From contig NZ_JAZGLW010000001.1 of NCBI RefSeq assembly GCF_036409155.1, positions 2,666,001-2,730,000 on the forward strand: a stretch of DNA of 64,000 nucleotides, written 5' to 3'. Below, in pieces: positions 15,449 through 41,785 of this stretch; position 1 is the stretch's first letter, and the number at the start of each line of letters is the position of its first letter. This stretch comes from Mycobacterium sp. 050128. GTDB lineage: Bacteria; Actinomycetota; Actinomycetes; Mycobacteriales; Mycobacteriaceae. The notes below the pieces were generated by a model, which was not told where the DNA came from, did no database searches, and saw only the letters and a list, made by a program, of their open reading frames with translations. The translations under genes and the position numbers were made by a program.

Positions 15449-17005
15449 ATGGTCCGGACATTGAGGAGAAGCGCGGCGGCGGTTGGCGCCGGCGCGGTAC
15501 TCGTGTTGAGCGGCTGTGGTGGTCACAACAGCCCCGGGCCGCTGTCGGCCATGGTCAGCCCGGCCATCCCGCCCAGCGTCGCGGACATCCCGAACCCGCT
15601 GCGCGGCCAGTACGAAGACTTGATGAATCCGCTTTTCCCGCAAGGCAATCCCGCCCAGCAGCGCTACCCGGCGTGGCCGGCGTCCTACGACGCCAGCATG
15701 CAGATCTCGTGGCGGCAGTTGCAGCCCACCGATCCGGCCACGCTGCCGCCCGATGCGCCCGATGACCGCAAGTTCGACTTCAGCGCGATCGACGACGCGC
15801 TGAACAAGCTGGCCAGCCGCAACATGCGGCTCGCCCTGCGCATCTACGTCTACAACCCGGACCCGCACGGCACCGGCATCGCCGTTCCCGAATGGGCGCG
15901 GCCGCTGGCCACCAGCTACCCCCCGCCGCCGAACAGCCCCGGGGTGCCGCAAGTGGTGCCGAACTGGGACGACCCGCACTATCTCGACGCATTCGGCCAG
16001 CTGGTCGCCGCGCTGGGCCGCCGCTACGACGGCGACGAGCGGCTCAGCATCTTCGAATTCTCCGGATACAACCAGTTTCGGGACCAGCGCATCAGCGGCG
16101 CGTCGATCCGGCAGCTGGTCGCGGCGAACGTCAACGCCTTCGGCCACACGCAATTAGTGGTCGCGCCGCAGAACCCGGAGATCGTGCGCGAACTGCTCTC
16201 CGACGACGTCACCAAGAAGCTGTCCGCCCCGGTCGGCATCCGCTCGGATTGCCTCGGCGTCGCATCGCCGTTGCCCGCCTGGGCCGAGTCCGGTGACTCC
16301 CAGTACGTCCGGAACAACGATGCGGTCGTCAACGCGATCAAGCAGCGACTGCGCTCCGCGCCGGTGATCACCGAATGGTGCTCCCTGCCCGGTGGGGCCG
16401 ACTCGAAGGGCTACTACGAGAAGGGTCTGCACGACGTCGTCAAATACCACGTGTCGATGACGTCGAGCGCGAACTTCCCGGACCGGGATGCGACATCGGT
16501 GATGGACCCCAAGCTGTATGCGTTGTGGGCGCAGGCCAATGCTGCTGCCGGATACCGGTATTCGGTCGAGGCCAAGCCGGGATCGCAATCGATTCAAGGC
16601 ACGGTCGCGGCCATCTCGGTGGAGTGGACGAACTACGGCGCGGCGGCCGCCACCGAGCAGTGGGCGCCCAACTACAAGCTGGTCGATTACACCGGTGCGG
16701 TGGTTCGGACGCTGCCGGCCACGGTCAACCTGAAGACATTGGTGCACGACGATTCCAGTCCCTCGCGGGAGGAGGCGGTCCCGGCGTCGTCCACCGAGAC
16801 CGTGCACGTCGACCTGTCCGGGTTGGCGCCGGGGCACTACACGCTGCGCGCCTCGGTGGACTGGCAACAACACAAGCCGGGCGCCTCGCACGTGGTGAAC
16901 TACGGACCGATGGCGCTGGCTCGCGACGGACGCGACGGCTCCGGGCTGTACCCGATTGCGACCCTTGACATCCCGCGCGACAACACCGGCTCAACCAACG
17001 GTTGA
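15449..17005 (+). CDS. Glycoside-hydrolase-like (TIM-barrel, DUF4832-type) lipoprotein, paralog A
   Basis: A 518-residue exported lipoprotein. The signal peptide ends in the lipobox VLSGC. The body begins NPLRGQYEDL and then follows the pattern of a clan GH-A-like (beta/alpha)8 barrel: a Trp-rich strand, FDFSAIDDALNKLASRNMRL, then LSIFEFSGY with a candidate acid/base Glu203 and VITEWCS with a candidate nucleophile Glu309. A C-terminal beta domain (about residues 370-500) contains WTNYGAAAATE and resembles carbohydrate-associated domains. Paralog B lies at 19008-20681, with a c-di-GMP enzyme gene between them. Likely role: trimming or binding the polysaccharide made by the cluster at the cell surface. 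The fold and catalytic residues are inferred from pattern, not proven. Confidence 0.65.
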   Translation: MVRTLRRSAAAVGAGAVLVLSGCGGHNSPGPLSAMVSPAIPPSVADIPNPLRGQYEDLMNPLFPQGNPAQQRYPAWPASYDASMQISWRQLQPTDPATLPPDAPDDRKFDFSAIDDALNKLASRNMRLALRIYVYNPDPHGTGIAVPEWARPLATSYPPPPNSPGVPQVVPNWDDPHYLDAFGQLVAALGRRYDGDERLSIFEFSGYNQFRDQRISGASIRQLVAANVNAFGHTQLVVAPQNPEIVRELLSDDVTKKLSAPVGIRSDCLGVASPLPAWAESGDSQYVRNNDAVVNAIKQRLRSAPVITEWCSLPGGADSKGYYEKGLHDVVKYHVSMTSSANFPDRDATSVMDPKLYALWAQANAAAGYRYSVEAKPGSQSIQGTVAAISVEWTNYGAAAATEQWAPNYKLVDYTGAVVRTLPATVNLKTLVHDDSSPSREEAVPASSTETVHVDLSGLAPGHYTLRASVDWQQHKPGASHVVNYGPMALARDGRDGSGLYPIATLDIPRDNTGSTNG

Positions 17006-17061
17006 CCCAGCCCGCGATGCCGTGTGTAAGCCCGGAGGAAATGCGTCGTGCATGGTACGGT

Positions 17062-17083
17062 TGTCTAACTAATATATTCCGTG
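17062..17083 (+). promoter_or_regulatory. AT-rich candidate promoter of the GGDEF-EAL gene
   Basis: In an otherwise GC-rich gap of 133 bp, the stretch around 17061-17080 is AT-rich and contains TAATAT at 17070-17075, a good -10 match. No clear -35 hexamer is at the right distance. It suggests that the c-di-GMP enzyme gene has its own promoter rather than relying on the lipoprotein gene upstream. Confidence 0.3.
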
Positions 17084-17138
17084 ACCTGCCCAAATCTGGC
17101 CACTCGGCCTGGACATGCGCCCCATATCGGAGGTCTCC

Positions 17139-18998
17139 ATGCCGCGCAGCCTAGACCTGGTCGTAGCCTCGCTCGCCACCGCGCTGATGGAGGCCACGGT
17201 ATCCACGGCGCCCGAGGTGAGCCAGAAAGTCCTCGCGCGGTTGGTCGAGCAATTCAAGCTGGACGCCTGTTTTTTGCGGCGCCGCGACGAGCTGTCCCGT
17301 GCCTCGGTGCTGGTCGCCGAGTTCCCGCCGCGCGCCGAGGTCGCGGATCCGGGCGCGACGGCCATCGTCCCCTACACCGACGCCGACGCGCTGCTCGCCG
17401 AGTGCGAGCAGGGCCGAAAGCCGGTGGTGATATCTCCCGGTCGGCGTTCGCGGTGGCGCTGGCTGACGGGGCCCATGCAACCCAGCGCTCCCTCGGTGGC
17501 GGCCGCGCCGCTGGTGTCGGGGGAGGTGACCACCGGCGTGCTCGGGTTCGTCAGGTTCGGCGATCGCAAGTGGAAGCAGACCGAGATCAACACGCTCGAG
17601 GCGGTCGCCGCGTTGTTCGCCCAGCTGCAAGCGCGCCTTGCCGCCGAGGAGAAGCTTCGCTATCTGGCCGAGCACGACGACCTGACCGGCCTGTACAACC
17701 GCCGGGCACTGGTCGCGCACTTGTCCGAACGGCTTGCCGCTGGAAAGCCGGGACCCGTCGCGGTGCTGTTTCTCGACCTCGATCGGTTGAAGCCGATCAA
17801 CGACTATCTGGGCCACACCGCCGGTGACTGGTTCATCAGAGTCTTCGCGCAACGCATCCAGGTCTGTGCCGGCACCCAGGCCATGATCGCCCGGCTCGGC
17901 GGCGACGAGTTCGTCGTCGTGCCCGAGCAGTCGATGTCGCCGGAGACCGCGGAGTCGTTCGCCCGCTGGCTGTCGAAGATGCTCTGCGAGCGGCTCGCCA
18001 TCGGCGGCCACATGATCAGTCGCACCGTCAGCATCGGGCTGGCCGTCGGGATGCCGGAGCGCGACAACTGCACCGCGCTGCTGCGCCGTGCCGACGAGGC
18101 CGTGCTGACCGCCAAGCGTGCCGGTGGCAACCAGATCGCGGTGTTCACCGACGATATGTCACTCAAAAGCGCCTTCCGTAACGACATCGAGCTGCATCTG
18201 CAGGGCGATATCGGCAGCGAAGCGCTGCTGCTGCACTATCTGCCCGAGGTCGACTTGTGGACCGGCGCGGTGGTGGCCGCCGAGGCGCTGGTCCGCTGGC
18301 GGCACCCGATCTGGGGGATGCTGCTGCCGGACTCGTTCATCGGCGTTGCCGAATCGACCAACCTGGCCGGCGAGCTGGGCCGCTGGGTGTTGAGAACCGC
18401 GTGTGCCGAATTCGGCCGGTGGCGTGCCAACGGCGTGGGGCTGGGTGCCACCCTGCGGATCAATGTGTCGCCCGTGCAGCTGATCACTCGCGGTTTCGTG
18501 CGCAGCGTCGCCGAGACGATCGAAGAGTTCGGTATCGATGCCGGGTCGTTGTGCCTGGAGATCACCGAGCGCGCCGTCGTGCACGACATCGAAGCGACCT
18601 TCAATACCCTCGCGGAGCTCAAAGAGGTCGGGGTGCAGCTGGCGATCGACGACTTCGGCACCGGCTATGCGGTGCTCTCACACCTCAAGCAGTTGCCGGT
18701 CGACATGCTCAAGATCGACGCCGGGTTCGTGCGCGACCTGGGGACCAACGCCGGCGACCTGGCCATTGTCCGCGCGATCATCGGGCTCGCCGAGGCATTC
18801 GGTTTGCAAGTCGTCGCCGAGGGAGTCGAGACGCCCGCTGCCGCACTGACTTTGATGCAGCACGGGTGTCACCGCGCGCAAGGGTTCCTGTTGTCCCGAC
18901 CCGTCCCCGGCGATGCGATGGAGGCATTGTTCTCGGCGCGCTGGATGCCGATGCCATTCCTGGCCGATCGTGAGGCCTTGTCGCAGGGCGCAATCTAG
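17139..18998 (+). CDS. GAF-GGDEF-EAL protein, c-di-GMP synthesis and hydrolysis
   Basis: A 619-residue cytoplasmic protein with the same domain order as M. tuberculosis Rv1354c. A GAF-like sensor domain spans residues ~1-165. A diguanylate cyclase domain has DDLTGLYNRRAL and an intact GGDEF at residues 254-258. A phosphodiesterase domain has intact EAL at 382-384, followed by RINVSP, LEITERAV, IDDFGTGYAVLSHLKQLP and VVAEGVET. Both catalytic sites look complete, and no RxxD inhibitory site precedes GGDEF. The ATG at 17139 is favoured over 17115 because a perfect GGAGGT ribosome site (17129-17134) lies four bases before it. It is flanked by two glycosidase-like lipoprotein genes at the head of the polysaccharide cluster, so local control of that pathway by c-di-GMP is likely. 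Confidence 0.93.
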   Translation: MPRSLDLVVASLATALMEATVSTAPEVSQKVLARLVEQFKLDACFLRRRDELSRASVLVAEFPPRAEVADPGATAIVPYTDADALLAECEQGRKPVVISPGRRSRWRWLTGPMQPSAPSVAAAPLVSGEVTTGVLGFVRFGDRKWKQTEINTLEAVAALFAQLQARLAAEEKLRYLAEHDDLTGLYNRRALVAHLSERLAAGKPGPVAVLFLDLDRLKPINDYLGHTAGDWFIRVFAQRIQVCAGTQAMIARLGGDEFVVVPEQSMSPETAESFARWLSKMLCERLAIGGHMISRTVSIGLAVGMPERDNCTALLRRADEAVLTAKRAGGNQIAVFTDDMSLKSAFRNDIELHLQGDIGSEALLLHYLPEVDLWTGAVVAAEALVRWRHPIWGMLLPDSFIGVAESTNLAGELGRWVLRTACAEFGRWRANGVGLGATLRINVSPVQLITRGFVRSVAETIEEFGIDAGSLCLEITERAVVHDIEATFNTLAELKEVGVQLAIDDFGTGYAVLSHLKQLPVDMLKIDAGFVRDLGTNAGDLAIVRAIIGLAEAFGLQVVAEGVETPAAALTLMQHGCHRAQGFLLSRPVPGDAMEALFSARWMPMPFLADREALSQGAI

Positions 18999-19007
18999 CA
19001 TCGCTAC

Positions 19008-20681
19008 GTGATCCGAAGACTGGGCAAATGCACGCTGGCCGTTGCGGTGTGCGCGGCGCTGGTTTTGAGCGCGTGTAGCAAGACGACCGACCCCGAGCCG
19101 CTGAGCGCGATCGCCAGTCCGGCCATTCCGCTGGGCGTGCAGGAGGTGCCGAATCCGCTGCGCGGCCAGTACGAGGACCTGATGAGGCCGCTTTTTCCAC
19201 AGGTGAATCCCGCGCAGCGCCGGTATGGATCGTGGCCGGCGGCGTATGACGCGAGCATGCGTTTCACCTGGCGGCAGTTGCAGCCCGTCGACCCGAGCAC
19301 ACTGCCACCCGACGCTCCCGACGACGTCAAGTTCGACTTCAGCGCGATTGACGACGCGTTGACGAAGCTGGCCGGCCGCAACATGCGGCTGACGATTCGG
19401 ATCGTCGCCTACAGCTCGTGCTGCGACACCGTCTATCCGTCCAACACCAGCATCGCTATTCCCGACTGGATGCGGCCGGTGGCCACCGACTATCCCTCGC
19501 CGCCCAAGTACTGGTGGACACCCGGGGTGACGCAGGTGGTGCCGAACTGGAATGACCAGCGCTACCTGGACGGGTTCGGCCAGCTGCTGGCCGCGCTGGG
19601 CCGCCGCTATGACCGCGACGAGCGGCTGAGCGTGTTCGAGTTCTCCGGCTACGGCGACTTCAGCGAGAACCACATCGCCTACTTGCGCGACAAGCTGAAC
19701 GCGCCGGGCCCGTCGCCGGACGAGAGCGTCGCGAAGCTGGGGTATTACAGCCAGTTTCGTGACCAGAGCATCACCAGCGCGTCGATCGCGAAGTTGGTGG
19801 CGGCGAACGTCAACGCCTTCCCCCACACCCAGCTGGTGGTGACCCCGATGAACGTCGACATCGTGCGGCAGCTGTTCGCCGACTGGGTCACAAAAGCGTT
19901 GTCGGCGCCGGTGGGTATCCGGTCCGATTGCCTCGGCGTCTACGCACCGCTGCCGGTGTGGGCCGAGTCCGACGGATCGCACTACGTAAAGCTGAACGAT
20001 CCGCTCGTCAAGCAGATCAAGGACCGGCTCGCGTCGGGACTGGTCATCACCGAGTGGTGCCAGTTGCCCGACGGGACCGACCCGAAGAGCTACTACGAGA
20101 AGGGACTGCGCGACGTCGTCAAGTACCACGTGTCGATGACGTCGAGCTTCAACTTCCCGGCGGTGAATGCGACCTCGCCGATGGACCCGGCGCTGTTCCT
20201 GCTGTGGTCGAAAGCCAACGTCGTCGCCGGCTACCGATATTCGGCCGAGGCGCGCAAAGGCTCGCAAGCGTCGCATGACGGGGAAGCGACGATCGGCGTC
20301 ACCTGGACCAACTACGGCTCGGCCGGCGCTTCCGAGAAATGGGTCCCCGGCTACCGGCTGGTGGATTTCACCGGGGCGGTGGTCCGCGAGATGCAATCGA
20401 CCGTGAATCTGAGGACCCTGGTCCGCGGGGAAAACTCCGGTGCCGAACCCGCCCCGGCGGCGGCCGACGAAACCGTGACCGTTGATGTCGGCAGCTTGCC
20501 GCCCGGCAATTACACCCTGCAGGCGGCGGCCACCTGGCAACAGCACAAACCCGACGCCTCGCACGTCGTGGACTACCCGCCGATGCGGCTGGCCCGCGAC
20601 GGGCGCGACGGGACCGGGTGGTACCCGCTGGCGACGGTCGACATACCGCGCGAGGTGGTCACTTCCCCGCCTCGGCAGTGA
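19008..20681 (+). CDS. Glycoside-hydrolase-like (TIM-barrel, DUF4832-type) lipoprotein, paralog B
   Basis: A 557-residue lipoprotein (lipobox VLSAC) closely related over its full length to the gene at 15449-17005. Candidate catalytic residues are Glu211 in VFEFSGY and Glu349 in VITEWCQ. Compared with paralog A it has two insertions: a Cys-pair loop (SSCCDTVYPS) near residue 140, and ~28 residues directly after FEFSGY (GDFSENHIAYLRDKL and on), close to the presumed active site. The GTG at 19008 lies 9 bp after the GGDEF-EAL stop, so the two may be co-transcribed. As I recall, Rv1006 of M. tuberculosis sits in this genomic interval and has a similar length, so B is the probable ancestral copy. 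Function inferred only. Confidence 0.65.
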   Translation: MIRRLGKCTLAVAVCAALVLSACSKTTDPEPLSAIASPAIPLGVQEVPNPLRGQYEDLMRPLFPQVNPAQRRYGSWPAAYDASMRFTWRQLQPVDPSTLPPDAPDDVKFDFSAIDDALTKLAGRNMRLTIRIVAYSSCCDTVYPSNTSIAIPDWMRPVATDYPSPPKYWWTPGVTQVVPNWNDQRYLDGFGQLLAALGRRYDRDERLSVFEFSGYGDFSENHIAYLRDKLNAPGPSPDESVAKLGYYSQFRDQSITSASIAKLVAANVNAFPHTQLVVTPMNVDIVRQLFADWVTKALSAPVGIRSDCLGVYAPLPVWAESDGSHYVKLNDPLVKQIKDRLASGLVITEWCQLPDGTDPKSYYEKGLRDVVKYHVSMTSSFNFPAVNATSPMDPALFLLWSKANVVAGYRYSAEARKGSQASHDGEATIGVTWTNYGSAGASEKWVPGYRLVDFTGAVVREMQSTVNLRTLVRGENSGAEPAPAAADETVTVDVGSLPPGNYTLQAAATWQQHKPDASHVVDYPPMRLARDGRDGTGWYPLATVDIPREVVTSPPRQ

Positions 20682-20852: not shown

Positions 20853-22301
20853 ATGGATTTCCGTACTTTTGTTCGGATTATCGCGGCGCACTGGAAGCTG
20901 GCAGCGGGCGCGTTCCTGGCGTGTGTGCTGGGCGCCGTGGTCGTTACGGCTCTGCAGACCAAGCACTATCAGTCGTCAGCCACGATCCTGATCTCGTTCT
21001 CCGGGGCCACTGACCTCACCGAGTTGTACAACGGCACGCTGACCGCGCAGGAGCGGCTGTCGTCGTACGCCCAGATCGCCGGCGGGCGCACGGTGGCCGA
21101 GCGCGCGATCAGCCAGCTCCAGGTCCCGATGAGTCCCGATGCCCTGGTGAGTCAGACGCAGGTGAAATACACCGCGAAGTCGATGCTGTTCACGATCTCG
21201 GTCAAGGACACCGATCCGACGCGCGCCGCGGCGCTGGCCGGGGCGATGGCCGACCAGTTCGCCACGATGGTCCCGACGCTCGGGGTGAGCGCGCACTCGA
21301 ATAATGGCGCGCCGCAGAGCAGCACCGCACCACGACCCGACACCGGTGATACACCGCCACCGCCGGAGGTGCCCGGCCAGCCGACACCCAAGCCCCTGCC
21401 GGTAGCCAGGGCGCGAGTGGTGGAGGCGCCCCGGGTGCCCACTCATGCGATCGCGCCGTCGCCGGTACGCAACGTGGCGATGGGTCTCGTCGCCGGTCTG
21501 CTGCTGAGCGTCGCGGTGGCGCTGACCCGGGAGGCGACCGACCGCAGCGTGCGCACCCGCGAGAAGCTGGAAGAGCTGTCCGGCTTGCCGACATTGGGAG
21601 AGCTGCCCGGAAAGCGTGGCACCGCACCGAAATTCGGCACCGACATCGCATTCGACGACGCGGTGCGCGGTCTGCGCACCCGGCTGAGCCGGGCGATGGG
21701 GCCCGATTCCCGCCGGGTGTTGCTGGCGGCGCCGTTCGGCGGTGAGGGAACCACGACGACGGTGCTGAACCTGGCCCGGGCATTCACCGAGCTCGGCCAA
21801 GACGTGCTGCTCGTCGAGGGCGACACCCGGCGGCCCGTGATCGCCGGCCTGCTCAGCGTCGAATCGGGCGAGGGACTGGCGCACGCGCTGGCCGATCCCA
21901 GCATCGCCGTGCAGGCCGTACGCGCGACCCCGATTTCGAGGCTGTTCCTGCTCGCGGCCCGGTCCGGCCGGCGCGGCGAGGGCGTGCCCGCCAGCGCGTT
22001 CACGCCGAACGTGATCGACAACGTCCTGGCGAACCTGTCGTCGCGGTTCGGCCACACCGTGGTCGACGGCCCGCCGGTGCTGGCCACGGCCGACTCCGGC
22101 CTGTTGGCCGGCGCGGTGCAGGCCACGGTGCTGGTGGTGCGCGCGAATCGCACCACCGTCGACGAACTCACCGACGCCCTGGCCGCGCTGCGTGCCGCCG
22201 GCGCGAACCTCGTCGGAACCGTGCTGACCGATGCCAAGCCGTCGGTGCACAGCAGGGCCGCGGCCCGCGCCTACCGGGGAAAGCTCAGCGGGTCGGCGTG
22301 A
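20853..22301 (+). CDS. Wzc-like polysaccharide co-polymerase with degenerate BY-kinase domain
   Basis: A 482-residue membrane protein. Two helices (residues ~16-34 and ~209-228) bracket an extracytoplasmic Wzz-type chain-length domain followed by a Pro-rich stretch. The C-terminal ~230 residues are a bacterial tyrosine-kinase-like P-loop domain: EKLEELSGLPTLGELP, AAPFGGEGTTTTVLNLA at the Walker A site, LLVEGDTRRPVIAGLL at Walker A', and VVDGPPVLATADS at Walker B. The Walker A lysine is replaced by Thr300, and no C-terminal tyrosine cluster is present. It is therefore probably a regulator of polymer length with reduced or no kinase activity. It begins an operon with the polymerase-like gene (GTGA overlap). 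Confidence 0.88.
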   Translation: MDFRTFVRIIAAHWKLAAGAFLACVLGAVVVTALQTKHYQSSATILISFSGATDLTELYNGTLTAQERLSSYAQIAGGRTVAERAISQLQVPMSPDALVSQTQVKYTAKSMLFTISVKDTDPTRAAALAGAMADQFATMVPTLGVSAHSNNGAPQSSTAPRPDTGDTPPPPEVPGQPTPKPLPVARARVVEAPRVPTHAIAPSPVRNVAMGLVAGLLLSVAVALTREATDRSVRTREKLEELSGLPTLGELPGKRGTAPKFGTDIAFDDAVRGLRTRLSRAMGPDSRRVLLAAPFGGEGTTTTVLNLARAFTELGQDVLLVEGDTRRPVIAGLLSVESGEGLAHALADPSIAVQAVRATPISRLFLLAARSGRRGEGVPASAFTPNVIDNVLANLSSRFGHTVVDGPPVLATADSGLLAGAVQATVLVVRANRTTVDELTDALAALRAAGANLVGTVLTDAKPSVHSRAAARAYRGKLSGSA

Positions 22302-23853: not shown

Positions 23854-24867
23854 GTGTTAGCCGTTACCCACGTCGGGCCCGACATGTACAGCTTCGGCGG
23901 GACGCAGTCCGTCATCCGGGTCATCCGCGACAACAACATCGGCGCGGACGACATCCGCGTGCTGTCCACCTGGGACGGCGGCAACCACGCGAAGAGCTTC
24001 CTGCTCACCGCCCGCGCGGGCGCGGCGCTGGCCCGCACCGCTCGCCCGGCCATCGTGCATTTCCATATCTCCAACGGCGGAGCGTGGCTGCGCGAGGGAC
24101 CGCTGATCCGGTTGGCGCGAGCGCGAGGGTTCCGGATCATCGTCACCATTCACGGCTCCGACTTTCACGATTTCGCGGCGTCGCGGCCGCGCTTCGTGGG
24201 AGCCACGCTGAAACTTGCCGACCACGTGATCCTGTTGTCGGAGGAAGCTCGTGCCGCCGTTCTCGCGGTGGCGCCGTCGGTGCACACCTCCGTGGTCGCC
24301 AACCCGATCGCGATCGATCGAGATGCCCCGCCGGCCAGCTTGACGCCGCCCGTGGCGCTGTTCGCCGGGACCATCGGTCACCGCAAAGGTGTCGCAGACC
24401 TGGTCGCCGCCTGGCGGCTGCTGCTCGACCAGGGCATCGAAGGGCATCTTCGGATCGTCGGGCGCATCGACGACTACACCCCGCCGCCCACCGAGCGCAT
24501 GTCGGTCCAAGGCCCGGTACACCCCGACGAGATCCGCGATCTGCTCCGGACGGTTCGCGTGGTCGTCTTGCCGTCCTACGCGGAGGGAATGCCGATGATC
24601 CTCACCGAGGCCCTCGCCGGCGCGCGGCCGTTCGTGGCCACTCCGGTGGGCGGAACAGCGGAGATCGCATCGGACCCGAGCATGCTGGTGCCGGTTGGCG
24701 ATGTGCCCGCGTTGGCAACCGCGATTGGCCGCTACCTGCGCGACCCGGGCTTGGCCGAGCGTGATGGGCTGCGGGGGCAGGCGCACATCGCGGCCACTCG
24801 TAGCCCCAAGATCATTGACGCGGAACTACGCCGGATCTACGGGGGCTGCGCGATTGAAGCGAATTGA
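23854..24867 (+). CDS. GT4-family glycosyltransferase
   Basis: A 337-residue GT-B glycosyltransferase. The N-terminal acceptor domain has DMYSFGGTQSVIR and the IHGSDFHDF segment. The C-terminal GT4 domain has FAGTIGHRKGVADL, and SYAEGMPMILTEALAGARP with the conserved E-x7-E of retaining enzymes. It likely adds a sugar to the growing lipid-linked repeat unit. The start is a GTG at 23854 with GGGGGA a short distance before it, 80 bp after the polymerase-like gene. It overlaps the next gene by 14 bp. Sugar specificity unknown. Confidence 0.9.
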   Translation: MLAVTHVGPDMYSFGGTQSVIRVIRDNNIGADDIRVLSTWDGGNHAKSFLLTARAGAALARTARPAIVHFHISNGGAWLREGPLIRLARARGFRIIVTIHGSDFHDFAASRPRFVGATLKLADHVILLSEEARAAVLAVAPSVHTSVVANPIAIDRDAPPASLTPPVALFAGTIGHRKGVADLVAAWRLLLDQGIEGHLRIVGRIDDYTPPPTERMSVQGPVHPDEIRDLLRTVRVVVLPSYAEGMPMILTEALAGARPFVATPVGGTAEIASDPSMLVPVGDVPALATAIGRYLRDPGLAERDGLRGQAHIAATRSPKIIDAELRRIYGGCAIEAN

Positions 24868-27510: not shown

Positions 27511-27514
27511 GGCG

Positions 27515-29391: not shown

Positions 29392-29522
29392 GGTCTCAAT
29401 CCCTCCTGAGCGTCCTCGCGATATCAGCAAAACGGAGCGGACAGTGGAAAACCTACGGCACATTCCGCGCGGCGGGCAACCCGCGCCGAGGCGATCCGCG
29501 AAACGCGGGCCGGCGCTGCCGG

Positions 29523-33902: not shown

Positions 33903-33908
33903 GACTCC

Positions 33909-35498
33909 CTAGTATGCGCCGTGGCTTGTCAGAACGGCCTTCACGGTCTTGGCAATGATCATCAGGTCGCCCGCCATCGACCAGTTGTCGACGTAGGACA
34001 GATCCAACCGGACCGTTTGCTCCCAGGAAAGCTCTGAGCGACCGCTTACCTGCCACAATCCGCTGACGCCCGGCTTCACCAGCAACCGGCGCGCGACGTC
34101 GCCGTCGTAGTTCTCGACTTCCCGGCGCAGCGGCGGCCGCGGCCCGACGACACTCATGTCGCCCTTGATCACATTGATGAACTGCGGCAGCTCGTCGATG
34201 CTGAAGCGGCGCAGGATCCGGCCGACCGGCGTGACGCGGGGGTCGCGGCGCATCTTGAACAGCATGCCGCCGGCGCTCTCGTTGTGCGCCAGCAGCTGGT
34301 CGAGCTGCTTGTCGGCGCCCTCGGTCATCGTGCGGAACTTCAGCATGGTGAACGGGTGTCCGTCCATGCCGATGCGCTCGGACGGGTAGAAGACGGGGCC
34401 CTTACTGGTCAGCTTGATCGCGATCGCCGCGGCGATCAGCACCGGCGCCGTCGCGATCAGGGCGGCCAGGGAGAAGCAGAAGTCGAAGGCCTGCTTCTGA
34501 AAGCGCTGGGTGCCTTCGTATTGCGGCTTCTCGACGTGCAGCAGCGGCAACCCGGCGGTCAGCTGCAGGGTCAGTCGCGCTTCGGCGACGTCCATCACGC
34601 CGGGCGAGACGACCAGGTCGACGTCCTTGGTCTCCAACTGCCACATCAGTTCTCGGATCCCGCGGACCCCGAAGTGCTCGGTCCGCGTGACCGCCACGGT
34701 GTCGGCGCCGCACTGGTCGATCGCGTCCACCGCATGGCTTTCGTCGCCCAGGATCGGGACCTCGCGGCCGTCGACCACCAGGGTGTTGCCGCGCGACGGG
34801 CCGTATCCGGGAATGCAGACCCCGACCACGACGCAGCCCGCCCGGGGGTTGCGGGCCAGCTCGTGTGCCAGGTGCGCGACGGCCTGGCGATCGCCGACCG
34901 CGAGGACCTTGGTCTGGCATTGGCCGCGGGCCCGCTTACTGCCCAGGTGCTGGCGCCACAGGCTGCGGCTGGCCAGCAGTCCTAAGGTGCCGGCGGGCAG
35001 CGCGATCGCGAGGTAGCCGCGGGCCAGATCGACCTTGGCGAGCAGGGTGACCATCGCGATGATGCCGAACGTCCAGAACGATGCGCTGCCGATCCGGCGG
35101 TACTCGTCGATGCCCGACCCGATGATGCGCGGAGACCGCGTTTGGAACACCGCGAGAGCCGCCAGCCACAGCGCCGCGAAGAGAATCGAGAACAGCGTCA
35201 TGACCGGGCCCGAGTAGGCCGAGGTCCGGGCCGGCGACTCCCCGAATCGGACGAGTTGGGCGAGCATGACCGATCCGGAGACGATCACCGTGTCGCTGAC
35301 GCGCAGCCGTCCCGCGTACAGGTCCTGCCAGCGCCGCGCGGCCTTGCTGTCGGGCACCGCCACCATCTGGGTGGCCAACGCGGAACCAGGAAGTCGACCA
35401 CCCGGCAACGAGATCATCCCTGTTGGCCTTCGCTTATACGGTGGCTGGTTGGGGCGCAACACCGTTACGGACGGTGCCGGAGACATTGGCATGATCAT
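33909..35498 (-). CDS. Polyprenyl-phosphate sugar-1-phosphate transferase (PHPT, initiating enzyme)
   Basis: A 529-residue protein with the WcaJ/CpsE-type layout. The N-terminal ~65 residues are cytoplasmic, then come about four membrane helices, a nucleotide-binding-like domain (residues ~195-320), a further helix (FSLAALIATAPVLIAAAIAI), and the bacterial sugar transferase domain. That last domain is complete: MLKFRTM, DPRVTPVGRILRRFSIDELPQ, MSVVGPRPPL and VKPGVSGLWQVSGRSEL. It starts repeat-unit synthesis by moving a sugar phosphate (often glucose or galactose) to the lipid carrier. It is the first gene of the operon leading into the flippase. The sugar cannot be predicted reliably. Confidence 0.93.
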   Translation of the reverse strand: MIMPMSPAPSVTVLRPNQPPYKRRPTGMISLPGGRLPGSALATQMVAVPDSKAARRWQDLYAGRLRVSDTVIVSGSVMLAQLVRFGESPARTSAYSGPVMTLFSILFAALWLAALAVFQTRSPRIIGSGIDEYRRIGSASFWTFGIIAMVTLLAKVDLARGYLAIALPAGTLGLLASRSLWRQHLGSKRARGQCQTKVLAVGDRQAVAHLAHELARNPRAGCVVVGVCIPGYGPSRGNTLVVDGREVPILGDESHAVDAIDQCGADTVAVTRTEHFGVRGIRELMWQLETKDVDLVVSPGVMDVAEARLTLQLTAGLPLLHVEKPQYEGTQRFQKQAFDFCFSLAALIATAPVLIAAAIAIKLTSKGPVFYPSERIGMDGHPFTMLKFRTMTEGADKQLDQLLAHNESAGGMLFKMRRDPRVTPVGRILRRFSIDELPQFINVIKGDMSVVGPRPPLRREVENYDGDVARRLLVKPGVSGLWQVSGRSELSWEQTVRLDLSYVDNWSMAGDLMIIAKTVKAVLTSHGAY

Positions 35499-35566
35499 GG
35501 CTCGGCGTCCTTAGGTCGCACATGACGGGTAGGTCACCTGAAGAGCCGGCGCAGTGGCGGCGCCCC

Positions 35567-36130
35567 TCAGCATGATGCTGCGCTCACGATCGGCACCGGC
35601 CGCGGCGCGTATGCGGGCCAGCTCGCGTCCTCCTCGGAGATGACGGTGACCGGCAGTGGCCATTCGATTCCGAATTCCGCGTCGTTCCAGCGCAATCCTT
35701 GCTCGTCGGCCAGCTCACGGTGACCGCTGATCTGGTAGTTGACCTCGGTGTTGGCGGTCAGCGTCTGAAAGCCGTAGGCGACGAAGGGCGGCAGGAACAG
35801 CGCCCGGTGGTTGTCGGCGTTCAGCTCGACCATCATGTGGTCGCCGAAAGTCTGCGAATCGGGCCGGATGTCGACGACAGCGGCGGCGATGGCACCGCGG
35901 GTGCAGCGCACCAACCGGGACTCGACGAAGGGCGGCGCCTGAAAGTGCAGCCCCCGCACCGTGCCGCGGGTGTAGTTGAAGAACACATCCGTGTGGCTGA
36001 CCTTGAACGTCAGGCCGTAACGATCGAATTCCTTGGCGCAGAATGACCGCGACGAAAAGCCGCGGTGGTCCCGCTGCGGTTCGAGGTCGACGATCGTGAC
36101 GCCGGCGACCTTGGTTGGCGTGTACTTCAC
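35567..36130 (-). CDS. RmlC-like (dTDP-4-dehydrorhamnose 3,5-epimerase family) protein
   Basis: A 187-residue cupin-type protein. Family motifs present are RDHRGFSSRSF, FFNYTRGTVRGLHFQAPP (conserved His62), RLVRCTRGAIAAAVVDIR and GLRWNDAEFGIEWP. Two key positions differ from canonical RmlC: the P-x-G-F-A-H-G-F motif reads PPFVAYGF (Tyr119 for His), and the usual catalytic Tyr in the Y-x-x-T-x-Y-Y region is His137 (YQISGHR). It may be a single epimerase, an isomerase, or act on another nucleotide sugar. The start is a GTG at 36130. It lies 68 bp before the sugar transferase gene in the same direction and probably feeds a precursor to the cluster. Confidence 0.8.
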   Translation of the reverse strand: MKYTPTKVAGVTIVDLEPQRDHRGFSSRSFCAKEFDRYGLTFKVSHTDVFFNYTRGTVRGLHFQAPPFVESRLVRCTRGAIAAAVVDIRPDSQTFGDHMMVELNADNHRALFLPPFVAYGFQTLTANTEVNYQISGHRELADEQGLRWNDAEFGIEWPLPVTVISEEDASWPAYAPRPVPIVSAASC

Positions 36131-36181
36131 GTACCGCTCCCTCTGTACAAGACGGTCATAGAAGGCATTGCTTTACCGGCC

Positions 36182-37348
36182 TTATCCGGCGGCGAACGGC
36201 CGAGCCATCGCGGTGGGGATGAGGCCGTAGCGCGGAACCGGAGGGGTGCGCGGTGCGGTGCCTCGCGCCATGGGCAGTCCGCCCAGCATGTTCGGCATCG
36301 AGCTGCCGCCGACGGCGATGTTCGGCAGCGCCGCGGCCGCCATCGGGGCATGGGGGATCATGCTGGTCCACGCCGTGGGCACCGATATCGGGCCCAACGA
36401 CGCGGCCGAGCCGAGGCTGCCCACCACGCTGGAGCCGATGCTCGGCAGCGCCGAGGCCGCACTCGCCGCACCCGACGCCGCACCTTGCGCGGCGGCGGCG
36501 GCGCCTTCCGCGGCGGTCCGGGCCATACCCTGCGCGGTTTGGGCCATCGACAGCACGGAGGACATCCCGTACAGCGGGGTTACTCCCGCCTGGAGATAGT
36601 TGGGCAGCTGGGACGTGAGGCTGGTCAGCGTGTCTGACACGGCCGTGCTGGTACCGGTCGAAACGGCGCTGGTACCGGTCGAAACGGTGCCGGTGGCGGG
36701 TGTGGTGAGCGCCTGCATCGTGGAAGGCACCTGGGAGACCAGATTCGCCAGATCGGCGTGCTGCAACCCGGTGGCGGCGCCGGCCTGGCCGACCGCGTTG
36801 CTCTGCGCGACCAACCCGGCGTCATCGGTGACCTTCGGCGGAACGTTGAACTGGGTGACGTCGCAGACGGCCACCGAGTTTCCGGCGTACTGGTACATCG
36901 CCGCGGCGTCCTGCGCCCACATCTCGCCGTATTCGGCTTCGTTGGCGGCGATCGCGGCCGAGTTCTGGCCGAAGAAGTTGGTGGACATCAGTGTCGCGAG
37001 CTGGACCCGGTTGGCCGTCACCGCCGGTGGCGGCACCGTCATCGCGAAGGCGGCTTCGTATATCTCGACGGCGAGCGTGGCGTGGCTGGCTGCCTCCTCG
37101 GCCCGCGCGGCTGCACCCGACATCCACGCCACATAGGGTCCGAACGCGGACGCCATGGTCAACGACGTCGGACCGAGCCACCGTCCGGTGGTCAATCCCG
37201 AGATCAGTGAGCGGTAAGAACTCGCCGCCGAGTGCAGCTCGGTGGCCAAGTTCGTCCAGGCCACCGCGGCCATGCTCAGCGAGCCGGGCCCTGGGCCGGC
37301 GTACATCCGTGCGGAGTTGACCTCCGGGGGCAGAGCGCCAAAGTCCAT
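36182..37348 (-). CDS. PPE family protein, SVP subgroup
   Basis: A 388-residue PPE protein. The N-terminal domain (residues 1-~175) begins [20 protein letters not shown] and has the PPE and W-x-G region [12 protein letters not shown]. The C-terminal part is rich in Ala, Ser, Thr and Gly and contains the subgroup motif [11 protein letters not shown]. Such proteins are exported by type VII secretion, usually with a PE partner. No PE gene or ESX gene is adjacent, so a partner encoded elsewhere would be needed. The ATG at 37348 starts the conserved N-terminus. Its position directly upstream of, and parallel to, the RmlC-like and sugar transferase genes suggests shared transcription, or at least joint acquisition. 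Confidence 0.92.
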
Positions 37349-37821
37349 TGTCTGAACCCCTGGGTCAGCGAGCCGCGCGGGCCGGTGCGGCCTGGCGGAT
37401 CGGCTGAGTGGTGACGAACGACATGTTTTCCATCCCCGAGAGGTTCGCTCTACAAACTGACGAGTCGATAATAACCCGAAAAACATACCAATAGTCAACG
37501 TTTTCGGGAGTGATGCTGACTACAAGTATCGCCGGCCTCGTGAACGCAGGCGTTAATGCCGAGACCCTGCTGCTAATCTCAGAGTCAGTTCTAATGTCGT
37601 CCCGAGAATCGCGGTGCGGGCTTGTTCGAACCGCTGAAGAGCCGAGGTGTGCGCCCTGCTCGAGGAAGGCACCATGATATGAACGCGATCAACCCAGCTC
37701 AGGGCCTCGCAGAGGGGACGCTTGCGGGCGTTGCGAGGTTCCGGTTTGGCGCTGGGTTGCCGCCGCTGACCGACGTTGATCGGCGATCCCCCGGTGCCGG
37801 AGAGCTGAGTTGTCCGCTTCG
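37349..37821. other. Divergent intergenic region between PPE and TetR genes
   Basis: A 473-bp stretch without a convincing gene. Its left half (about 37440-37520) is clearly AT-rich for this genome and holds the inverted repeat at 37475-37508. The right half contains short open frames with no recognisable product and no good ribosome site. It should contain the promoters of the PPE operon (minus strand) and of the first TetR gene (plus strand). Confidence 0.7.
37475..37508. promoter_or_regulatory. Candidate TetR/butyrolactone-receptor operator
   Basis: CCCGAAAA (37475-37482) and TTTTCGGG (37501-37508) form a perfect inverted repeat with an 18-base AT-rich centre, 127 bp upstream of the PPE start and 314 bp upstream of the TetR start. 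Size and base composition resemble autoregulatory elements bound by ScbR/ArpA-type repressors, whose genes follow directly. No experimental basis is available here. Confidence 0.45.
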
Positions 37822-38520
37822 ATGACGAGCCATTCATCCGACGGACGGGCCGATGCGACCCGCCGACACATCCTGCGCGCCGCATCGCACCAGTTCGCCC
37901 GGCGTGCCTACCACGAGGTGGGCCTCGACGACATCCTCGCCGAGGCCGAACTGACCAAGGGCGCGATGTACTTCCACTTCCGGTCGAAACACGCCCTGGC
38001 GGTCGCGATCATCGACCGGCAGACCGAGGCGGGCACCCTGGCCGTCCAGGACCTGGTGACGCGGGGTCTTTCGGGTCTGGAGACGCTGATCGACTTCTCG
38101 TACCTGATCGCCATTCAGGACATCAAGACCGACCAGGTCAGGGCGGGACTGAACCTGATCGAGTCGGTCGGGCGTTCGGAAGGCCTGCAGGAGAAGCTGC
38201 TGGATCAGTGGGTCAAAGCCCTGGGTGACGTCGTGCAACAGGCCATCGTCGAGGGCGACGTCGACGAACGATGTGAGCCGCTGGATGTGGGACGCATGAT
38301 GGTGTCCCTGCACATGGGGCTGCGCAAGACCAGCAATCTGGACGATCCCGAGCGGTTCCTGCTCGACCTCGAAAAGTGCTGGGGCCTGCTGTTAGCCGGG
38401 ATCCTGCAACCCGACCGGGACGACTACTTCCGCCAATTCCTGCGGCGACGTGGTGCGCTGGCGATCAACACCAGTTCAACCCCCGCCGATCCCTCGTCGA
38501 CCTCCGACGACTCGTCGTAA
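37822..38520 (+). CDS. TetR-family regulator, ScbR/gamma-butyrolactone-receptor-like (1)
   Basis: A 232-residue repressor. The N-terminal helix-turn-helix domain has RRHILRAASHQFARRAYHEV and ELTKGAMYFHFRSKHALAVAII; the Y-F-H-F-R-S-K form is typical of the ScbR/ArpA group of actinobacterial autoregulator receptors. The ligand domain contains FLLDLEKCWGLLLAGI, and the tail is rich in Ser, Thr and Asp. The ATG at 37822 is used; a TTG at 37810 would add four residues. It is divergent from the PPE gene and followed by a second regulator of similar type. No butyrolactone synthase (AfsA-like) gene is in the window, so the ligand is unknown. Confidence 0.85.
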   Translation: MTSHSSDGRADATRRHILRAASHQFARRAYHEVGLDDILAEAELTKGAMYFHFRSKHALAVAIIDRQTEAGTLAVQDLVTRGLSGLETLIDFSYLIAIQDIKTDQVRAGLNLIESVGRSEGLQEKLLDQWVKALGDVVQQAIVEGDVDERCEPLDVGRMMVSLHMGLRKTSNLDDPERFLLDLEKCWGLLLAGILQPDRDDYFRQFLRRRGALAINTSSTPADPSSTSDDSS

Positions 38521-38640
38521 CCAGGGCGAACATCCCGGCTGGGCTTGCGACTGCTGTTAATCTTGATTCTGTTGCAGCGCAATGTGGGACGAGATCACCG
38601 TTATCTGCGCACTCGATGAAACGCCGGAGGAGCACGGGTA

Positions 38641-39348
38641 ATGGCGCGCCAGGTCCGGTCTGAGGTCACCCGGCGAAAGATCCTTAACGCGGCCATCGAT
38701 GTGTTCGGCGAGGTCGGCTATTCGGCCGCCGGCTGGGGCACCATCATCGAACGCACCGGGATGACCAAAGGTGCCCTCTACCACCACTTTGATTCCAAAG
38801 AGTCCCTCGCGTCGGCCATCATCGATGAGGGCGCCGACGCGCTGCTGAACGCGTTCCGGAACGTGTGTGTGAAGGCGTCACCGGGGCTCGAAAACCTGCT
38901 GCATGGCACGTTCACGATCGTCGGGATGCTGAGCTCGGACCAGACCGCCCGCGCCGCCGAGCAGCTGACCTGCACGTTGCGCGGTTTCAACCAAGCGGCG
39001 GGCCACTTCTGCGCGGGCATGGTTGAGCTGCTGGCCGCCGAGGCCAGGCGGGCGATCGCGGAGGGCGACCTGCGGCAAGACCTCAATCCCGAGTGGGTCA
39101 GCGAGACGATCGTCGGCGCCATGTTCGGCGCCCGGGCGCTGGCCGACGCGATAGCCGGCCTGGATAACGACGGCGGCGTCACCGGTGACCTGGAGCGCTT
39201 GACCCGGGTATCGGAACTCTTGCTTCCCGGCATTGTCTCGGAAGCGTCGCTGGCGTACTTCCGCCAGTTCCTTTCCCGCGAAGCCATGCGGCATGCCCGG
39301 CCCCCTGCGGTACGTCGGGACAGCGCCGCGGTCTCGGAAATCGGGTGA
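38641..39348 (+). CDS. TetR-family regulator, ScbR/gamma-butyrolactone-receptor-like (2)
   Basis: A 235-residue regulator with a helix-turn-helix domain (RRKILNAAIDVFGEVGYSAA, then TGMTKGALYHHFDSKESLASAII) and a long helical ligand domain. Its C-terminal SYFRQFL-like segment (LAYFRQFLSREAM) resembles that of the preceding regulator (DYFRQFLRRRGAL), so both belong to one subgroup. A GGAGGA ribosome site precedes the ATG. It is separated from regulator 1 by 120 bp and is followed closely by the BcsB-like gene, which it may control. A possible GTG at 39345 would couple the two genes. Confidence 0.88.
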   Translation: MARQVRSEVTRRKILNAAIDVFGEVGYSAAGWGTIIERTGMTKGALYHHFDSKESLASAIIDEGADALLNAFRNVCVKASPGLENLLHGTFTIVGMLSSDQTARAAEQLTCTLRGFNQAAGHFCAGMVELLAAEARRAIAEGDLRQDLNPEWVSETIVGAMFGARALADAIAGLDNDGGVTGDLERLTRVSELLLPGIVSEASLAYFRQFLSREAMRHARPPAVRRDSAAVSEIG

Positions 39349-39422
39349 ACCTGGGCAAAAGCCCAGCGCGAGCCTCGGCCCGCCGCTTCGACTGCGCGCC
39401 GTTTCGACAACGTACCGAAAGA

Positions 39423-41399
39423 ATGCATACTGTTCCGGTGGTGTACCAGAAGTATGTAGCCAGGCTTGCCGCTCTGGCCGGTGTGATCGGATTCCTGGTC
39501 CTGAGCGCCCCGCCCGCGGGCGCCGCGCCCTCGGATGCGGGTACGACGACGGACTCGCTGACCCTGTCGCTGGCCGACCTCGGGTCTGCACCCAACCTGG
39601 AATTCTGGGGCCTGACCAGCACGCAAGTCCTGACCGTGCCGGTATTGCGCGGGCTGACGCCGACCGCGCTGAACACCACCGTCGAGCTGCCGATCAATCT
39701 GCGGACCGGCACGCTCACCGTGAGCCAGGACCAGCGCACCCTGGCGCGGCTGAACCTGCCCGGCGCGGACAATTCACCACTTGTCATCCCGCTGGCCGGT
39801 GCCGAAGTGGTCGACAACTGGCTGACGATCACGTTGCGGACCTACCTGGTGCCGCAAGATGGGGTCTGCCTGTACCCGGAAAGCCCGCTGCGCCTGACCA
39901 GTCCGTCGATCAGCTACACCGGCGTCGAACAGCCGCCCACCACGGTGGCGCACTTCTTGCCGCCGGTGCTGAAGAAGCTGAGCATCTACCTGCCACCATC
40001 GCCGTCGGCCTCCGAGTCCGACACGGCCATCCAGCTGGCCGCCTCGGCCGCCTCGCGCTATGGCAGGCAAAACCCCGAGATCGTCGTCGTCCCATTGGCC
40101 GAAGGACAGGTTGCGCCGCCGGGCCCGCCGCAATCGTTGGAACGCCAGATCGTCGTCAAAGAGGGGTCGGACAACGGGCTGGCCCTGCAAGGCTCCGGCG
40201 CGGCGACGTACCTGTTGATGTCGGGACCGCTGGGCGAGGCCGACGAATCCGACACCGCCGTGCTGTTCAATGACCTGTCCCAGCTGGCGGTTTCGTCCAA
40301 GGCCGTCGTGGATCAACTCAAGCCCAACCCGCAACAGCCCGGCGACAGCACGACCATGCGCGACCTCGGGCAGACCGTCGCCAACGCCACCTCGCTGCAG
40401 CCGCGGGTGTCCATCGGGTTGGATCAGACCCGGTTCGGCAGATCCATCCGCAACGTGCGCGTGCATCTGCAGGGCTCCTACACACCGACGCCGTCCAACA
40501 TCGGCGGTCAGATCACGGTCAACATCGGCCCGGAGACCATCGATCACTTCCCGACCGACGGCCACGGCACCATCGACCGCTGGGTGGATGTGCCCGACCG
40601 GCTGCTGCAGCGCTACACCAGCCTTGATGTGGTGCTCGATGTGGCGAGCAACGTCGGACACTGCGGGGACTTCTACACCGCCGGGCCCGGAAACCAACTA
40701 CTGGCGCTGAACATCAACGGCGACACCACCATTGAGAGCAAGCCCGCCGCACCGCCGGTGCCCGACGGCTTCCAGTCGCTGCCCCAGGCGCTGATGCCCC
40801 GGGTCCAGGTGGGCATCGAGGCCCACTCGCTGCCGGACACCCTGCGCGCCGTCAGCCTCATGGTGGGTCTGCAGCGAATCAGCTCGACGCCGATCTACAC
40901 CCATGTGACGAGCGTGCAGCAGGCCATCGATTCCTCGAATCCCGCGATCCTGATTTCGGCCGACGGGTGGAACCATTCCAACGTCGTGCTCCCGGTGTCG
41001 GCCGGGCCCAGCGGGCCCATCACGGTCAACGCCTACACCGCCGACGGCAAACCGACCACGCTCGCGCTGGATCCGGTGATGAAATTCGCTTCTCTCCAAA
41101 CGGTTTTCAACCATGGCCGGTCACTGCTGGTCGCGACGTCCAACGGCACCTCCGCTCAGGTCGACGAGCTGATCCGGTGGCTCGGCGCCGATAACAAGCG
41201 CTGGCAGCGGCTCAAGGGTGTCGCGGTGGTGGCCGTGGCCGGACAGGAACCCGTCACCGTCGAACACTCGCCGACGGCCGGTCCGGTCAACGCACCCGAG
41301 GACCACTCCGACCTGGGGTGGCTCTGGTGGGTGGGCGGCGCGTGGCTCGCGGTGACCGTCGTCGGTGCCGGCGTGATCGTGCTGCGAGCCCGGCGCTGA
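39423..41399 (+). CDS. BcsB-like exported membrane-anchored protein
   Basis: A 658-residue protein with a signal peptide (residues ~10-35, ending PPAGAAP), a large extracytoplasmic part and one C-terminal membrane helix (WWVGGAWLAVTVVGAGVIVL) with a short basic tail. This is the topology of BcsB, the exported subunit of bacterial cellulose synthase. Motifs such as SLADLG, NGD-like DTTIES strands and a central SASRYGRQNPEI segment resemble actinobacterial BcsB-like (PF03170) proteins. No BcsA-type synthase or PilZ domain is seen in the window. The ATG at 39423 gives a standard signal peptide. A GTG at 39345, overlapping the TetR stop, would add 26 residues. It may guide the exported polysaccharide through the envelope. 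Confidence 0.7.
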   Translation: MHTVPVVYQKYVARLAALAGVIGFLVLSAPPAGAAPSDAGTTTDSLTLSLADLGSAPNLEFWGLTSTQVLTVPVLRGLTPTALNTTVELPINLRTGTLTVSQDQRTLARLNLPGADNSPLVIPLAGAEVVDNWLTITLRTYLVPQDGVCLYPESPLRLTSPSISYTGVEQPPTTVAHFLPPVLKKLSIYLPPSPSASESDTAIQLAASAASRYGRQNPEIVVVPLAEGQVAPPGPPQSLERQIVVKEGSDNGLALQGSGAATYLLMSGPLGEADESDTAVLFNDLSQLAVSSKAVVDQLKPNPQQPGDSTTMRDLGQTVANATSLQPRVSIGLDQTRFGRSIRNVRVHLQGSYTPTPSNIGGQITVNIGPETIDHFPTDGHGTIDRWVDVPDRLLQRYTSLDVVLDVASNVGHCGDFYTAGPGNQLLALNINGDTTIESKPAAPPVPDGFQSLPQALMPRVQVGIEAHSLPDTLRAVSLMVGLQRISSTPIYTHVTSVQQAIDSSNPAILISADGWNHSNVVLPVSAGPSGPITVNAYTADGKPTTLALDPVMKFASLQTVFNHGRSLLVATSNGTSAQVDELIRWLGADNKRWQRLKGVAVVAVAGQEPVTVEHSPTAGPVNAPEDHSDLGWLWWVGGAWLAVTVVGAGVIVLRARR

Positions 41400-41419
41400 T
41401 CGGCCCGCTCAGCGGGACG

Positions 41420-41785
41420 CTAGCGCTCGTCGTCCCACAGTTGCTCGGTCAGGTCCTGGAAGGTCGCCAGGGCGAATCGGTCGTCGGCGCGCATTCCCAC
41501 TGACTTGCTCATCAGCGCACGCACGACCGAGCCGTCCTTGTGTGCCAATTCGACGACCTCGTTCGCCAGGGCATGGACCACCGACAGCAGCGAGGACTCC
41601 GAGTCGGGAGCCCGGTGGAAAACCTCGCCGAAGCGCAGCGCCAGCACCTCGTCGGATTCGTAGCCCACCATTTCCGCGAATGCGGTGTTGGTGAACAAGA
41701 TCGCGCCGTCGTCGCCGACCGCCAGCACCGGGACCGGAATCCGCTCCAGCACCACCAGGGCAGGCAACTGCTTCAAGGTGGTCAT
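41420..41785 (-). CDS. Single-domain PAS protein
   Basis: A 121-residue protein consisting of one PAS domain: PVPVLAVGDDGAILFTNTAFAEMVGYESDEVLALRF has the family N-A-F-x-x-x-x-G-Y core. No output domain, helix-turn-helix or membrane segment is present, so it would act through a partner protein. The start is assigned to the ATG at 41785; an ATG at 41866 would add 27 residues that are rich in His, Arg and Asn and do not look folded. It is convergent with the BcsB-like gene, at the right edge of the accessory island before metG. Confidence 0.8.
   Translation of the reverse strand: MTTLKQLPALVVLERIPVPVLAVGDDGAILFTNTAFAEMVGYESDEVLALRFGEVFHRAPDSESSLLSVVHALANEVVELAHKDGSVVRALMSKSVGMRADDRFALATFQDLTEQLWDDER

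Follow-up and report, generated by a model that had tools for sequence, protein, structure and literature searches.

In the present study, we analyzed a 64,000-nucleotide stretch of the genome of Mycobacterium sp. 050128 (the window), which carries an island of approximately 26 kb bounded by positions 11898–15412 on the pabB-like side and 41915–45621 on the metG side (Table 1). Gene order in these flanks is the same as that from Rv1005c (pabB) to Rv1009 in M. tuberculosis, and the pabB-metG site of the island corresponds to Rv1005c–Rv1007c in that species. The first-pass annotation of this DNA described a complete Wzx/Wzy exopolysaccharide island acting as one pathway. Our results suggest that the site probably holds an exchangeable (serotype-like) Wzx/Wzy polysaccharide cassette in slow growers.

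The gene families named in the first-pass annotation are present as intact frames, apart from two corrections. The initiating polyprenyl-phosphate hexose-1-phosphate transferase (PGT), the flippase, the polymerase-like and chain-length proteins, three glycosyltransferases, two redox enzymes, the epimerase, and both TetR regulators were recovered, as was the GGDEF-EAL enzyme, which also has a GAF domain. The PGT is the sole PF02397 match in the window genome. Of the two genes called methyltransferase-like, MT1 has a family match, whereas MT2 gave none in Pfam and NCBIfam scans. The second correction concerns the BcsB-like protein, discussed below. The PPE gene had been overlooked, and the end assigned to the island (41785) falls within the PAS gene.

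Table 1. Genes of the island and its surroundings in the window.
Feature	Position	Strand	Assignment and evidence	Placement
PMT-type mannosyltransferase gene	9466–11982			near island
pabB-like, sigma-factor-like, and Pyr_redox_2 genes	11898–15412	-		flank
lip1	15449–17005	+	DUF4832-like lipoprotein; PF16116 23.3 bits, below cut-off 29.2	backbone
GAF-GGDEF-EAL enzyme	17115–18998	+	GGDEF and EAL motifs intact	backbone
lip2	19008–20681	+	glycosidase-like barrel lipoprotein, putative Rv1006 family	backbone
Wzz	20853–22301	+	co-polymerase, P-loop domain without Walker A lysine; PF02706 30.4 bits (cut-off 25.5)	cassette
Wzy	22298–23773	+	membrane polymerase/ligase-type protein; PF04932 34.9 bits (cut-off 31.7)	cassette
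GT_a	23854–24867	+	glycosyltransferase (GT4)	cassette
AKR	24854–25810	+	aldo/keto reductase; start approximate
GMC	25807–27510	+	GMC oxidoreductase, weakly like pyranose oxidase
GT_b	27515–28576	-	glycosyltransferase; start approximate	cassette
MT1	28570–29463	-	methyltransferase; PF13489 E 2.6e-18
MT2	29622–30473	+	putative methyltransferase; no family match
GT_c	30496–32442	-	glycosyltransferase; strong GT4, weak GT2 match in N-terminal half	cassette
Wzx	32439–33902	-	flippase; PF01943 E 3.6e-21	cassette
PGT	33909–35498	-	initiating transferase; PF02397 E 6.6e-67; TIGR03025 428.8 bits (cut-off 295.55)	cassette
RmlC-type	35567–36130	-	dTDP-sugar 3,5-epimerase	cassette
PPE	36182–37348	-	PPE-SVP protein between epimerase and TetR pair; PF00823 E 1.3e-64; PPE-SVP E 6e-10	cassette
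TetR1	37810–38520	+	regulator	partly cassette
TetR2	38641–39348	+	regulator	partly cassette
BcsB-like	39345–41399	+	BcsB-fold secreted protein (predicted), C-terminal membrane helix	cassette
PAS protein	41420–41866	-		backbone
metG (-), tatD (+), rpfB (+)	41915–45621	mixed		flank

A protein scan yielded 77 named loci, comprising 69 from mycobacteria (PGT at least 66% identical), three from fast growers (56–58%), and five from outside the genus. The initiating PGT, the Wzx flippase, and the glycosyltransferases occur together at the window locus and at the merged loci: among 25 of the latter (window included), PGT was found in 24, Wzx, Wzy, and GT_b in 23 each, Wzz in 22, and the BcsB-like gene in 13. 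These counts, and the joint change of the core genes between species described below, support the Wzx/Wzy polysaccharide reading of the first-pass annotation. A census covered 396 genomes of the genus, drawn from a larger group. The sugar transferase of the island (pabB-metG) type, defined by at least 66% identity and proposed earlier for mapping by species, was present in 90 of them, and looser relatives (E ≤ 1e-60) in 279; because of the latter number, the idea of a rare island was rejected. The lipoprotein was found in 126 genomes, including 88 of the 90 with an island-type PGT. Both genes lay within 30 kb on a single contig in 72 genomes and 72 kb apart in one; in the remaining 15, the listed positions were on separate contigs or positions were unlisted. 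Their co-occurrence exceeds chance, although the Fisher test ignores shared descent and was not used as a probability. The more distant PGT of M. aurum (56%) has its own neighborhood with matches to UDP-glucose dehydrogenase, epimerase, glycosyltransferase, and flippase genes, none of these neighbors being similar to the window PPE.

Gene maps of the loci showed constant edges and a variable center. By gene content, the loci were assigned to four types (A, A2, B, and C), with thresholds of our own and A2 as a mixed class. Type B loci (L033, 6042–9944; L038, 14963–17304) carry genes for a WecG/TagA-type transferase, a PIG-L deacetylase, a nucleotidyltransferase-like protein, an epimerase, and a sugar C-methyltransferase, which suggests a differing sugar chemistry. 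Mapped onto a metG tree of 42 loci, these types required nine changes (minimum, 4; shuffled mean, 22.8). The types are mostly inherited, yet have also been switched between close relatives. For example, M. vulneris (type C) sits among M. colombiense strains (A2) on this tree. The two are 95% identical in metG, 94% in lip, 92% in GGDEF-EAL, and 91% in PAS and pabB; their cassette genes are 73% (PGT), 71% (Wzx), 64% (PPE), 58% (Wzz), and 51% (Wzy) identical. M. vulneris and M. triplex are 84% identical in metG, 83% in BcsB, 82% in PGT, 81% in Wzz, and 72% in Wzy. Comparing the window with M. triplex gave 94% for metG, 92% for lip and GGDEF-EAL, 71% for PGT, and 49% for Wzy. Between M. rhizamassiliense and M. 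scrofulaceum E3039 (metG, 85%), Wzx (91%), GMC (89%), and GT_a and GT_b (88% each) are shared, but PGT (77%) and Wzy (67%) are not.

We also calculated partial correlations of gene distance with core distance, using 11–20 loci per gene and flank genes as controls. Since the distance pairs are not independent, our reading relies on how the genes differ from the flank controls rather than on permutation counts. Values were high for BcsB (.94), Wzy (.92), Wzz (.91), GT_b (.89), Wzx (.86), and PGT (.84), lower for PPE (.67), rmlC (.65), TetR2 (.52), and TetR1 (.31), and small for lip (.24), the redox gene (.20), pabB (.14), sigma (.10), metG (.06), PAS (.00), and GGDEF-EAL (-.08). TetR1 (.62), TetR2 (.71), and PPE (.63) follow the flanks as well. 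The cassette therefore consists of PGT, Wzx, Wzy, Wzz, the glycosyltransferases, the epimerase, the BcsB-like gene, PPE, and, in part, the TetR pair. The two lipoproteins, the GAF-GGDEF-EAL enzyme, and PAS form a backbone that varies with the chromosome, the lipoproteins largely so. Fixed flanks, a variable center, and exchange among relatives, by which we recognize a serotype-type locus, were all found. The claim of a single unit thus holds for the core genes, which change together between species, but not for GGDEF-EAL, PAS, and largely the lipoproteins, which vary independently. Independent occurrence of the parts, which the first-pass annotation had named as counting against it, was observed for part of the island: 38 of the 126 lipoprotein genomes are without an island-type PGT.

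In 64 of 76 loci, a PPE gene is found no farther than 5.4 kb from PGT. Among the 12 loci without a nearby PPE, seven belong to fast growers or non-mycobacteria, three (L028, L051, and L058) have stretches that are short or truncated at this point, and two (L055 and L077) have no such frame. PPE proximity may be incidental, because genes of this family are abundant and readily inserted: the window genome has 47 PPE matches, the two nearby PPEs of one locus (L049) fall outside the island group of the PPE tree, and MAP0967, beside the M. avium paratuberculosis PPE gene MAP0966c, is a transposase. However, a single PPE lineage accompanies PGT. In the tree, which used 30 of the 47 genome matches, 64 of 66 island rows cluster together (support 80/93), joined by just one further PPE of the genome, although the bootstrap is unsettled and the island label needs four changes instead of one. 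Moreover, PPE stays with the cassette where PGT lies away from metG (L020, L026, and L056) and tracks core distance (0/999 permutations). We consider an incidental association unlikely.

No PE gene was found in six frames of the PPE-TetR1 interval upstream of the window PPE. A PE-like gene lies just upstream of PPE in 16 of the 76 loci, with PF00934 confirmed for L035. In four M. kansasii relatives, a 98-residue frame at this place is DUF5313-like (by Pfam for L026 and by similarity for L031, L037, and L039), not PE; these frames were dropped from 20 hits, leaving the 16.

Parts of this arrangement are already in print, namely the M. avium paratuberculosis block and Rv1006. MAP0966c (PPE) was placed between homologues of Rv1006 and Rv1007 (PMC1660551). 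In a Fur-like mutant (iron starvation), MAP0963c (flippase), MAP0964c (sugar transferase), MAP0965c (epimerase), and MAP0966c were reportedly down-regulated together, as was the transposase MAP0967 (PMC11026511). MAP0963c–MAP0966c is the gene series of window positions 32439–37348, orthology being judged from place and names. A published tabulation of surface-exposed proteins, which includes DnaK and GroES, names MAP0966c as well (PMC2859856).

The lipoproteins Lip1 and Lip2 are paralogues (66%) with lipobox-like signals. Their predicted fold is a TIM barrel (VIA-align structure comparison), in agreement with the glycosidase-like character assigned earlier. Glu211 is present in 40 of 40 sequences and Glu349 in 33; from their positions on strands 4 and 7, they are putative catalytic residues. 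The GGDEF-EAL enzyme resembles DcpA/Rv1354c in its GAF-GGDEF-EAL order and intact motifs, the likeness being one of domain order (order of Rv1354c, PMC6364259). At least six other proteins of the window genome have GGDEF or EAL domains, and the best match among them is only 36% identical to the island enzyme.

Twenty-five lipoprotein genomes gave no PGT match at 1e-60, and stretches from 20 of them were fetched (G105, G119, G145, G169, and G203 were left out); 13 more had only a less similar PGT. Two of those left out, the 3.3-Mb genomes G105 and G145, gave weak lip matches (E 9e-30 and 5e-39) that are perhaps remnants. Among the 20, of which 17 include metG, six (L150, L155, L158, L159, L160, and L165) carry GGDEF-EAL, lip, and the TetR pair but none of the polymer genes, and L161 retains lip together with TetR genes and PAS. 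In six, a GGDEF-EAL stub lies directly upstream of lip (L147, L151, L157, L162, L163, and L166), six have lip alone (L148, L149, L153, L154, L156, and L164), and one has a cassette elsewhere (L152). The stubs are always the extreme C-terminus, comprising the last 30–64 residues from residue 563 or later of 627, and are probably deletion scars. Because they remain, we infer loss rather than gain of the cassette. Among 12 lip genes without the cassette (66 pairs), the median ratio of nonsynonymous to synonymous substitution rates was 0.16 (0.10–0.26). Lip is thus kept by purifying selection where polymer genes are absent, which argues against a role confined to this polymer.

These results bear on the proposal that all genes form one pathway in which the lipoproteins trim the polymer and the GGDEF-EAL enzyme controls it via cyclic di-GMP (c-di-GMP). 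The polymer core, joined by the BcsB-like gene and PPE, conforms to it. However, GGDEF-EAL tracks the chromosome, it persists with lip and the TetR pair where polymer genes are missing or survives only as a tail beside lip, and lip also occurs alone. In addition, the window genome has no match to PilZ (PF07238), and the putative nucleophile Glu349 is replaced in seven of 40 lipoproteins. Since the lipoproteins and the GGDEF-EAL enzyme vary apart from the polymer genes, trimming and c-di-GMP control are conjectural, and we regard a single pathway as improbable.

In published work (PMC8006519 and PMC5393005), Rv1006 of M. tuberculosis is labeled an unknown or conserved hypothetical protein. Its published peptide 24–59 (PMC8006519) shares 22 of 36 residues with Lip1 (score 103) and 20 with Lip2 (score 98); the remaining 25 window proteins score at most 43, and 200 shuffled peptides aligned with Lip1 at most 45. 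In relatives with lip only, 25–26 of 36 residues are identical. Rv1006 appears to belong to the Lip1/Lip2 family. M. tuberculosis has a relative of just one flanking gene, the Rv1006-type lipoprotein, at the pabB-metG site. In L154, lip stands alone between the flanks, and the methionyl-tRNA synthetase aligns closely with that of M. tuberculosis. Rv1006 has been called a horizontally acquired "glycosyl transferase" (PMC3087520), a label unsupported by the predicted fold; it also figures in a list of genes that vary between H37Ra and H37Rv (PMC5393005).

Wzz combines its chain-length domain with a P-loop domain in which the Walker A lysine is replaced by threonine or a serine-threonine run. Of 22 orthologues, 21 carry the motif GGEG(T/S)T, whereas CapB and BceF have lysine at that place; the remaining orthologue (colombiense) has no P-loop motif under the pattern used. 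The last 30 residues contain 0–2 tyrosines, and a tyrosine-rich tail is absent. Judged by motif, Wzz is probably not a working bacterial tyrosine kinase (BY-kinase), although the P-loop domain is kept. The BcsB-like assignment failed by sequence: Pfam, NCBIfam, a whole-genome BcsB profile, and a PDB profile search were negative, and hhalign gave a probability of 1.0% against E. coli BcsB. It stood by predicted fold, with residues 66–548 aligned to E. coli BcsB at a template modeling score of approximately 0.38. Profiles for a BcsA-type partner (PF03552 and PF07238), which match four and five of 14 controls, were silent in the genome, although another GT2 synthase may be present. Regulation by the TetR pair is putative; c-di-GMP-binding TetR proteins have been reported in M. 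smegmatis (PMC10519070).

Lipooligosaccharides and glycopeptidolipids are surface glycans of slow growers, and their loci are defined by polyketide synthase, nonribosomal peptide synthetase, or acyltransferase genes. It is improbable that the cassette product is a protein-linked glycan or the head group of such a glycolipid, with the Wzy_C protein as ligase: ligases do occur in this family and a PMT-type mannosyltransferase gene lies nearby, but none of the defining genes had a match among the scanned island proteins, and Wzz in 22 of 25 merged loci fits chain-length control.

Several points weigh against an exchangeable polysaccharide cassette at this site. PGT relatives outside this setting are common, as the 279 genomes show. 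In L052 (M. sp. 4858), PGT is directly followed by lip2, PGT and PPE being kept and Wzx to Wzz gone. In L152, a cassette of BcsB, Wzx, glycosyltransferase, lip, Wzz, Wzy, AKR, and GMC genes lies away from metG and pabB, neither of which is in the stretch, and the genome has no PGT match at 1e-60. Locus types cluster on the metG tree far beyond shuffles, so vertical descent also matters. The partial correlations rest on non-independent distances and heuristic gene calls, and lip, the redox flank gene, and pabB gave small positive values. The BcsB-like gene is present in only 13 of 25 merged loci, the M. vulneris and M. colombiense copies (44% identical) may be paralogues, and confidence in the model is modest (predicted local distance difference test 59.6, predicted template modeling score 0.43, low after residue 470). 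Wzy_C family membership also covers O-antigen ligases, and the polymer is a prediction from the genes.

Judged from the gene families, PGT would load hexose-1-phosphate onto a polyprenyl carrier, on which the glycosyltransferases, the RmlC-type epimerase, and the redox and methyl enzymes would assemble a repeat unit. Wzx would flip this unit, and Wzy with the Wzz co-polymerase would join the units. Since inheritance of the BcsB-fold protein and of PPE follows that of the polymer genes, we propose that these two act on the chain past the inner membrane, by guiding, exporting, or anchoring it. The lipoproteins and the GGDEF-EAL enzyme form a backbone of their own, which looks older and persists where the cassette is gone. 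More tentatively, we speculate that an ESX-5-secreted PE/PPE protein replaces Wza at the mycomembrane, where it would carry or anchor the polymer, and forms the outer half of the exporter with the BcsB-fold protein, each polymer type having its matched PPE. Slow growers would then possess exchangeable, serotype-like capsules, lost from the M. tuberculosis lineage save for the Rv1006-type lipoprotein. This scenario is possible, but doubtful.

Wzx/Wzy serotype loci, such as pneumococcal cps and the Klebsiella K loci, are a known kind; the PPE and BcsB-fold content and the mycobacterial setting appear to be new. Similar to capsule and O-antigen serotype loci, the island has a fixed site, conserved edges, a variable center, a PGT-Wzx-Wzy-Wzz core, and cassette replacement. 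In contrast to them, its cassette includes PPE and the BcsB-fold protein, its co-polymerase is without the P-loop lysine, and Wza and Wzb had no match among the island proteins, to which the search for a Wza-type Pfam family was confined. Plasmid records matching PGT numbered 1035, all below 60% identity, and the ten listed comprised nine from Rhodococcus and one from Streptomyces. The Rhodococcus plasmid PGTs (55–59% identical) also lie beside flippase (or MATE family) and O-antigen-ligase-family genes; however, the two stretches seen were without PPE, BcsB-like, or lipoprotein annotation. In Actinoplanes, wps/imp Wzx/Wzy clusters matter for sporangia (PMC13390465). The island protein shares a multi-domain fold with the E. 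coli cellulose export subunit BcsB, but has no detectable sequence kinship with it and sits in a Wzx/Wzy locus of a genome without PF03552 or PilZ matches. Wzz resembles the BY-kinases Wzc, CapB, and BceF in joining a Wzz domain to a P-loop ATPase domain, but differs in the lysine and the tail. Similar to ESX-5 PE/PPE substrates such as PPE10, the island has a PPE-SVP protein, with PE just upstream in some loci, and occurs in slow growers; ESX-5 and PPE10 affect capsule integrity (PMC4900558). However, the island PPE is genetically tied to a polysaccharide cassette, and no PE lies beside it in the window. No mycobacterial Wzx/Wzy or PPE-linked polysaccharide locus was described in the titles and abstract openings searched, which covered few subscription journals.

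To our knowledge, the transport of hydrophilic polymers over the mycomembrane, the role of most PE/PPE proteins, and the c-di-GMP targets of mycobacteria remain open. A review noted that the link between c-di-GMP and polysaccharides in mycobacteria needs exploring (PMC6364259). The present results give Rv1006 a probable family, a predicted fold, and an evolutionary setting. A PPE gene co-inherited with a Wzx/Wzy cassette makes mycomembrane transport and PE/PPE function directly testable. If the polymers differ among species as the genes do, slow growers have serotype-like surface variation.

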